This document shows positions 17,997 through 63,860 of a DNA stretch of 64,000 bases, one piece after another; position 1 is the first letter of the stretch; each line of letters starts with the position of its first letter. Under the pieces are notes generated by a model. The model was not told the DNA's origin. It made no database searches and saw nothing but the letters and a program-made list of their open reading frames with translations. The stretch comes from Bacteroidota bacterium (GTDB lineage: Bacteria; Bacteroidota; Bacteroidia; B-17B0; Aurantibacillaceae), in NCBI GenBank assembly GCA_017303905.1, contig JAFLBH010000001.1, positions 535,809-599,808 of the forward strand, given 5' to 3'. The translations under genes were made by a program, and so were the position numbers.

Positions 17997-18133
17997 AACT
18001 AGAAATGACGAAAAACAAGGGTCGTTAAATAATTTAGTGGAAGTCAAAAACATTTGCTGTTAACTTCATACCACTAAAGTGAAATTTAATAGCAAAATGG
18101 CTCAGATTATTCCCAAGCCTTTCTGCTTTAGTG

Positions 18134-18424
18134 GTGATCCCGGCGGGAGTCGAATGGCGAGGCCATGCTCGCCATCGCGAGTGTTAACCTCGCGACCCAC
18201 AACCAACAGAACATATTCAAACTAATTTAAGTGATCCCGGCGGGAGTCGAATGGCGAGGCCATGCTCGCCATCGCGAGTGTTAACCTCGCGACCCACAAC
18301 CAACAGAACGTATTCAAACTAATTTAAGTGATCCCGGCGGGAGTCGAATGGCGAGGCCATGCTCGCCATCGCGAGTGTTAACCTCGCGACCCACAACCAA
18401 CAGAACGTATTCAAACTAATTTAA
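18134..18424 (-). repeat. Three tandem 97-bp units, each a tRNA-Arg 3' half with a 41-bp double-hairpin insert
   Basis: Units start at 18134, 18231 and 18328 with no spacing between them; units 2 and 3 are identical and unit 1 differs by one base (18213). In plus orientation each unit has 21 nt matching the tRNA-Arg 3' end, a 41-bp insert (18155-18195, 18252-18292, 18349-18389), 17 nt matching the T-stem to anticodon region, and 18 nt of AT-rich spacer. The insert holds two stems: GGCGAG / CTCGCC and TCGCGAG / CTCGCGA. It interrupts the tRNA sequence exactly between T-stem and T-loop. On the minus strand the units lie directly 3' of the intact tRNA-Arg and would be part of its trailer. Confidence 0.92.
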
Positions 18425-18425
18425 G

Positions 18426-18499
18426 TGATCCCGGCGGGAGTCGAACCCACAACCAACAGAACCGGAATCTGTCATTCTATCCAGTTGAACTACGGGACC
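18426..18499 (-). tRNA. tRNA-Arg (CCG)
   Basis: A 74-nt cloverleaf on the minus strand. The acceptor stem is GGTCCCG / CGGGATC, the D-stem GTTC / GAAT, and the anticodon stem ACAGA / TCTGT with loop TTCCGGT, giving anticodon CCG for the CGG codon. The T-arm is GTGGG-TTCGACT-CCCGC and the discriminator base is A. CCA is not encoded. It is the only intact copy among tRNA-Arg fragments on both sides. Confidence 0.95.
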
Positions 18500-18533
18500 A
18501 GTGTAATTAAAAGAACTTTGTATAGGTAAAGCA

Positions 18534-18600
18534 ATTCTATGGGCGAGGCCATGCTCGCCGTCGCGAGTGCTAACCTCGCGACCAGTTGAACTACGCGACC
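18534..18600 (-). pseudogene. tRNA-Arg 5' fragment interrupted in the D-loop
   Basis: Bases 18534-18540 and 18582-18600 joined together match bases 18474-18499 of the intact tRNA-Arg at 25 of 26 positions (acceptor 5' strand, D-stem and D-loop). Between them sits a 41-bp insert placed just after the two conserved D-loop guanines. No anticodon or 3' half follows, so it cannot make a tRNA. Confidence 0.85.
18541..18581. repeat. 41-bp double-hairpin element, D-loop copy
   Basis: It has the same length and stems as the three copies in the 97-bp units, differing at three positions: the first base, the base between the two hairpins, and one loop base. All three changes lie outside the stems. It is GC-rich in an AT-rich region. 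Confidence 0.88.
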
Positions 18601-63635: not shown

Positions 63636-63652
63636 TGTAAGTTCTTTACAAC

Positions 63653-63821
63653 GCTTATTACGAAAGGCAGAGGGACACGCCCGATGAAGCCTTACCAACC
63701 CTAGATAGTTGGTAGTTCTCAGTTCAGAGTTGGTAGAGTACATCTACGAACTACGAGCTAAAAACTACAAACTAATAGAAGGTGGGAAATCGTGTTCCGG
63801 TATAGCCGGAAGCAAATAAGC
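63653..63821 (+). promoter_or_regulatory. SAM-I (S-box) riboswitch upstream of metH
   Basis: The leader closes with a 7-bp P1 stem GCTTATT / AATAAGC (63653-63659, 63815-63821). P2 is AAGGC / GCCTT, enclosing the conserved core AGAGGGACACGCCCGATGAA. ACC / GGT opens P3, followed by the segment AAGGTGGGAAATCG and a P4 hairpin TTCCGG / CCGGAA (63795-63800, 63806-63811). This layout and the core match the SAM-I class, which turns off methionine genes when S-adenosylmethionine is plentiful. P3 carries an extra imperfect stem of roughly 70 nt. Confidence 0.88.
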
Positions 63822-63860
63822 CGGAAATAAATTAGTTTACAATAAAACAATTATACAACT

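Follow-up and report, generated by a model that had tools for sequence, protein, structure and literature searches.

The tandem array beside the tRNA-Arg(CCG) gene of the window, the 64,000-nt stretch of a Bacteroidota genome analysed here, is probably what is left of a GIY-YIG homing-type element, now ORF-less and tandemly amplified. Elements of this kind would target tRNA genes and restore an intact copy of the tRNA. Similar break-ins are present at many other tRNA genes of this bacterial family. Genomes and loci are denoted by G and L numbers, respectively, with G000 being the genome of the window.

The intact tRNA-Arg(CCG) (18425-18499, minus strand) was identified by both ARAGORN and Rfam. 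Three tandem units of 97 bp were located on its 3' side on the same strand (18134-18424). Tandem Repeats Finder (18134-18445, period 97, 3.2 copies, 99% match) and a repeat search (three copies, spaced by exactly 97 bp) agreed with the initial annotation, which had exactly described three 97-bp units with a 41-bp insert at the T-stem/T-loop boundary, two of them identical and the third differing by one base. Each unit was composed, in minus-strand order, of an 18-bp trailer, tRNA nucleotides 38-54 (GTTCTGTTGGTTGTGGG) beginning directly 3' of the anticodon, the 41-bp insert exactly at the boundary (GTGGG^TTCGA), and nucleotides 55-75. Unit 1 (18328-18424) adjoined the intact tRNA and was identical to unit 2 (18231-18327), which differed by one base from the distal unit 3 (18134-18230; trailer, nucleotides 38-75 and double hairpin). 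The tRNA 3' end of unit 3 met the original 3' flank at 18133 (CACTAAAGCAG, minus strand). The insert formed a double hairpin, TCGCGAG..CTCGCGA / TGGCGAG..CTCGCCA, and occupied 18349-18389, 18252-18292, and 18155-18195 in units 1, 2, and 3, respectively, all on the minus strand.

The tandem array was therefore real as first described, but a fourth copy of the double hairpin (18541-18581, minus strand) had been overlooked. This copy was inserted in the D-loop, after G19, of an upstream 5' tRNA-Arg fragment, which consisted of nucleotides 1-19 with one substitution and the original 5' flank (18582-18600) and continued as nucleotides 20-26 (ATAGAAT, 18534-18540), both on the minus strand. A 34-bp leader with a boxA-like AAGTTCTTTT (18500-18533, minus strand) preceded the intact tRNA. 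The order on the minus strand was thus 5' flank, nucleotides 1-19, double hairpin, nucleotides 20-26, leader, intact tRNA, and three units. None of the fragments around the intact gene was called a tRNA by ARAGORN or Rfam. In the window and ten tRNA loci, the inserts contained no RNA family besides tRNA and no intron family was matched; a group I intron in the tRNA was rejected as a candidate, with no intron ribozyme found there. Elsewhere in the window, a SAM riboswitch was located at 63652-63822 (RF00162, 65 bits).

The origin of this arrangement was revealed by the corresponding locus of a close relative (L011 in G087), which had the same gene order, was about 95% identical, and contained one plain tRNA-Arg(CCG). 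The 5' flank of this single gene, ATGTTCTTTTTATTAAAAAA, matched the flank of the 5' tRNA-Arg fragment of the window, and its 3' flank, CACTAAAGCAGAAAGG, matched the flank of the last unit. Because the original flanks were carried by the outer fragments, these fragments are the original gene, with an intact copy placed between them. In the initial annotation, the units were seen as additions to an original, intact tRNA; the comparison with the empty site reverses this assignment and makes the broken gene the old one. The original gene was split around the anticodon, with nucleotides 27-37 missing. In a pairwise alignment with the empty site, the window contained an additional 101 bp on the D-loop side and an additional 291 bp (3 × 97) exactly at the T-stem/T-loop boundary. 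The flanks of the intact copy, a leader and a trailer, were unlike those of the single-copy gene, and the 34-bp leader did not occur in this form at the empty site; the intact tRNA is best explained as a restored working copy. In G000, partial tRNA copies under a strict definition were located beside their own gene at 9 of the 33 tRNA loci, while none was found in 1056 control pairings of a tRNA with a foreign locus, at loci without such a stub. A chance origin of the tRNA-Arg stubs was thereby excluded.

The empty site also bears on a possible function of the array, for which a decoy of tRNA halves and a processing array had been proposed initially. The units share the strand of the tRNA, no obvious terminator separates them from it, and the 366-nt stretch (18134-18499) folded better than shuffled sequences (z of -4.9), as would be expected of a functional RNA, either a structured trailer or a tRNA-half decoy, processed from the tRNA transcript. 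However, the fold follows from the perfect repeats and the hairpins, the 5' acceptor strand is missing from the units, and no conserved counterpart of the array was identified. Since the whole arrangement was missing from the closest relative, a conserved decoy is unlikely, nothing suggests a conserved function of either kind, and a functional RNA is very improbable. An assembly artefact of copy number is extremely improbable. The number of units is that of the assembly; one unit differed by one base, the G000 assembly comprised only 6 contigs, and similar tandem units occurred independently in other genomes.

When the other tRNA loci of G000 were compared with those of G087, seven further loci differed in the same manner as tRNA-Arg(CCG). 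At tRNA-Phe, a 126-bp insert was located exactly at CCTGG^TTCGA and was composed of a tRNA 3' end, a new terminator, and the double hairpin; a search for the source of the new trailer in relatives gave a convincing match for the hairpin part only. In G087, the hairpin was missing from all eight tRNA loci, with the exception of a shared copy 3' of Arg-TCT, which indicates that most of the G000 insertions are recent. In both relatives, a long tandem repeat of 8 bp (gttaggag) was located directly upstream of tRNA-Arg(TCT) (L131 and L163).

BLAST and a covariance model detected about 18 copies of the 41-bp element in G000. Eight tRNA loci (Phe, Met, fMet, His, Asp, Arg-ACG, Arg-TCT, and Arg-CCG) accounted for 12 of them, and 6 were located elsewhere. 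The suggestion of a tRNA-targeting mobile repeat in the initial annotation therefore held in outline, as the hairpin is dispersed and resides in tRNA fragments at these eight loci. The copies at tRNA loci interrupted a partial duplicate of the adjacent tRNA, except for one in a duplicated 3' flank at Arg-TCT, and were located in the D-arm or D-loop when the fragment was upstream and at the T-loop boundary when it was downstream. Among 14 independent hairpin sites, 8 were at tRNA loci, which is far beyond chance by a rough estimate (of the order of 1e-17) in which tRNA genes and 150 bp of flank at either end make up 0.3% of the genome. For 17 of 19 tested hairpins at tRNA loci across genomes, the junction was also present nearby in a second, uninterrupted copy, compared with about 2 of 18 copies elsewhere. 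A general coupling of the hairpin to flank duplication was accordingly rejected, as it holds at tRNA loci and fails elsewhere. In G052 (L200/L214, C63:59073), an 85-bp tandem duplication carried a non-tRNA hairpin in its second copy, which shows that duplicated flanks can occur with the hairpin away from tRNAs as well. A viral origin of the hairpin was rejected, as no match was found among 2.9 million viral contigs.

The two 7-bp stems of the hairpin pair were nearly invariant among 36 distinct copies. Several changes affected both sides of a stem and kept the pairing (T-A to C-G, G-C to A-T, C-G to A-T, and G-C to T-A). Past the stem, an unpaired G was invariant in the first hairpin, and a C was present in the second hairpin of all copies but one. 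The eighth pair covaried, being Watson-Crick in 27 and 26 of 31 distinct loop pairs of the two hairpins, where 15 were expected (permutation p at most 5e-5), and the loops were otherwise hypervariable. The nearly invariant stems and the covarying pair indicate that the hairpin is under structural constraint.

These features recall REP hairpins, and the double hairpin might be an independent transposon-like repeat, REP/REPIN-like or moved by another enzyme, with a preference for tRNA loops. The partial tRNA duplication would then be made by the insertion, or be retained by selection, as cells without a spare copy would die, and the GIY-YIG genes would be fellow travellers. REP/REPIN sequences associated with RAYT (Y1) proteins share paired imperfect hairpins with a bulge, conserved stems, and variable loops. 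The copies away from tRNA genes, mostly at (A/T)TG^TT sites, and the nearly uniform orientation of the copies at tRNA loci are also consistent with such a repeat. However, no RAYT was associated with the palindrome of the window: the two Y1 (RAYT-like) genes of G000 (L116, C1:1771402; L117, C5:325232) were each flanked by repeated palindromes of their own (AAAAAGTCCCGTAGGGACGACCT; CGCCCTTTAGGGCG), and mobilisation by RAYT/Y1 was rejected. The 5'-foot GTAG of REP sequences was present only in the Asp, Arg-ACG, and Arg-TCT copies of G000. The rarity of duplication at non-tRNA copies, together with the perfect congruence of the hairpin type with the GIY-YIG clade and the hairpin beside the ORF in 7 of 7 clade members, both described below, further argue against an independent repeat, which is rather unlikely.

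Evidence for a GIY-YIG homing-type element also comes from the nuclease genes of the family. In G000, 7 of 8 free-standing GIY-YIG genes were located within about 190 bp of a tRNA. The usual order was tRNA, terminator, GIY-YIG gene, second tRNA 3' end with hairpin, and terminator, and some of the ORFs extended into the displaced tRNA piece. The clade associated with the double hairpin consisted of small genes at tRNA-Arg, -His, and -Lys of related genomes, each with a displaced tRNA fragment. A nuclease of this clade was located 3' of tRNA-Arg(CCG) in G005 and G041 and 5' of it in G017; in all three genomes, the displaced tRNA-Arg fragment contained the hairpin pair. The two sides of the window array look like these two arrangements minus the nuclease gene. 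Among the seven members closest to the query, the hairpin type of the window was found beside the ORF in 7 of 7. The GIY-YIG loci surveyed were partly hand-picked, and the unbiased top matches were mostly from a tRNA-less clade. The clade gene and the hairpin co-occurred across 65 genomes (6 of 7 compared with 4 of 58, Fisher p = 1.7e-5). The highest-scoring GIY-YIG genes of the family belonged to another clade, of which 4 of 29 were closely downstream of a tRNA, and the association with tRNAs is therefore clade-specific.

In a tree of 39 proteins, the hairpin type, assigned by eye, required 11 changes, which was the minimum possible, compared with a mean of 27.9 after shuffling. The double-hairpin clade formed one branch (SH-aLRT 99), apart from the GIY-YIG genes not near tRNAs, and comprised eight members with the hairpin type of the window and three with other stems. 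Intact tandem units of a GIY-YIG gene and a tRNA fragment were found at Val and Met loci (L252, L254, and L255), and decaying second copies at Lys and Pro loci (L292 and L293). No phage homologue of these nucleases was found at E <= 1e-3. The G000 tRNA-Arg(ACG) locus was considered as an internal deletion of a GIY-YIG element, for which the alignment gave no support.

Every long tRNA stub seen contained a hairpin, of a type that agreed with the neighbouring nuclease clade. This observation also weighs against replication slippage or unequal recombination, by which parts of the tRNA loci would have been duplicated with no homing element and the hairpins captured later in dead pieces. The 97-bp units are clean tandem copies, and in L270 a stretch comprising 45 bp of native 5' flank and tRNA nucleotides 1-15 was likewise cleanly duplicated in tandem, as slippage would produce. 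The new leader, trailer, and terminator sequences, however, are unlike the empty site, and slippage as the sole origin is improbable.

For a homing-type element, the following course of events is proposed by analogy with phage SegB. A complete element would carry a free-standing GIY-YIG endonuclease gene, whose product would cut the tRNA gene in the T-loop, D-loop, or anticodon arm. Repair would leave an intact tRNA beside the inserted gene and displace the old tRNA piece, which would be capped by hairpins of the type proper to the nuclease clade. At tRNA-Arg(CCG) of G000, a nuclease gene would once have been present and since have been lost on both sides, leaving the restored tRNA between a 5' and a 3' fragment, each bearing a single hairpin pair. 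The 3' fragment and its hairpin pair would then have been amplified to three units. Within the locus of the element itself, the hairpin perhaps spoils the cut site; alternatively, it may serve as a binding site. Two observations count against a remnant: no GIY-YIG gene was present on either side of tRNA-Arg(CCG) in the window, and the leader and trailer pieces had no other occurrence, and hence no source, among the loci compared. In addition, the hairpin may move without a nuclease, as about 6 of the 18 G000 copies and most copies in G055 and G057 were not at tRNA genes.

Several known systems share parts of this architecture. SegB of phages T4 and T6, a free-standing GIY-YIG homing endonuclease, cuts inside tRNA genes at RAWTSGAAC, and through recombination SegB of phage T6 causes a tRNA segment to be amplified in tandem (PMC13096335). 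The reverse complement of this site, GTTCSAWTY, would by our own reading correspond to the T-loop sequence. The likeness comprises a small free-standing GIY-YIG enzyme at tRNA genes, a motif that reads as T-loop sequence, tandem amplification of a tRNA segment, and, as for a SegB-like homing element, presence and absence alleles at the same site in close relatives. The present elements differ in being located on bacterial chromosomes, with ORFs of about 85-90 aa, displaced tRNA fragments, and clade-specific hairpins. In Allomyces mitochondria, a GIY-YIG ORF is inserted in a gene, the function of which is restored, and the original atp6 end is displaced; that case concerns a protein gene in fungal mtDNA, whereas many bacterial tRNA genes are affected here. 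Double-hairpin elements of fungal and algal mitochondria also consist of two adjacent short GC-rich hairpins and are dispersed, apparently mobile, and found in structural RNA genes. Their two hairpins and dispersed copies match in architecture only, and the hairpin type here is tied to a nuclease clade. Rickettsia palindromic elements, which insert in frame in protein genes, are likewise short palindromes, and a 39-bp double hairpin was found in frame in two open reading frames here (L099, 1504-1542, 597 aa; L103, 307-345, 289 aa), but their sequence is different and the present hairpins are concentrated in dead tRNA pieces. Tyrosine-integrase elements at tRNA 3' ends similarly reconstitute the tRNA that they enter, with a displaced 3' end left behind. 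Such an element was rejected, since neither a tyrosine integrase nor a fixed attachment core was found; the inserts were about 70-400 bp long, noncoding or with GIY-YIG only, and the duplicated part varied with each tRNA.

Other irregularities were observed at tRNA loci. A second type of insert behind tRNAs (L168, with two tandem copies, L167, L173, L178, and L179) was noncoding, about 150-170 bp long, and located between duplicated tRNA 3' ends, often with a duplicated terminator. Several copies had a segment complementary to the tRNA trailer, such as AAATGAAAACCC / GGGTTTTCATTT in L178, and no Rfam family was matched by this type. Dead tRNA-Val and tRNA-Leu copies (L158, L241, L252, and L173) had the whole anticodon stem-loop exactly replaced by a palindrome, TCCCGA..TCGGGA or CCCCGATTTTATCGGGG. 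The terminator hairpins of displaced or new tRNA copies had exchanged inner parts (L125, and L128 compared with L161): TCCCGATAGCAATCGGGA was located inside the terminator loop of the G000 tRNA-Val 3' fragment (L125), and TTGCAGAAATGCAA in L128 corresponded to GTGCCTCTGGCAC in L161 between the same AACC/GGTT arms of tRNA-His.

The nuclease type and its link to tRNAs are already known from phages, and mitochondria, Rickettsia, and REP systems offer known examples of short mobile palindromes. In a partial literature search, which is not proof of novelty, no account was found of GIY-YIG elements on chromosomes by which tRNA pieces are displaced and whose hairpins are specific to the clade. As a tentative proposal, somewhat beyond what we would assert, these loci on Bacteroidota chromosomes could represent a new class of tRNA-gene elements that are self-compensating. 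A particular terminal hairpin, single or double, would belong to each GIY-YIG clade and be recognised by its protein or the repair route; the broken tRNA would be rebuilt; and ORF-less derivatives such as the array would spread or amplify in trans like MITEs.

The tRNA genes are essential and mostly single-copy in these genomes, and yet in this lineage a large share of them has probably been broken and rebuilt by small nuclease-bearing elements. Such elements would also explain the small tRNA-adjacent GIY-YIG ORFs with C-termini running into tRNA sequence. If confirmed, the finding would extend SegB-type tRNA-targeting homing from phages to bacterial chromosomes, give a concrete origin for tRNA fragments beside tRNA genes, and provide a case in which the joint divergence of a protein clade and a DNA or RNA hairpin can be tested.
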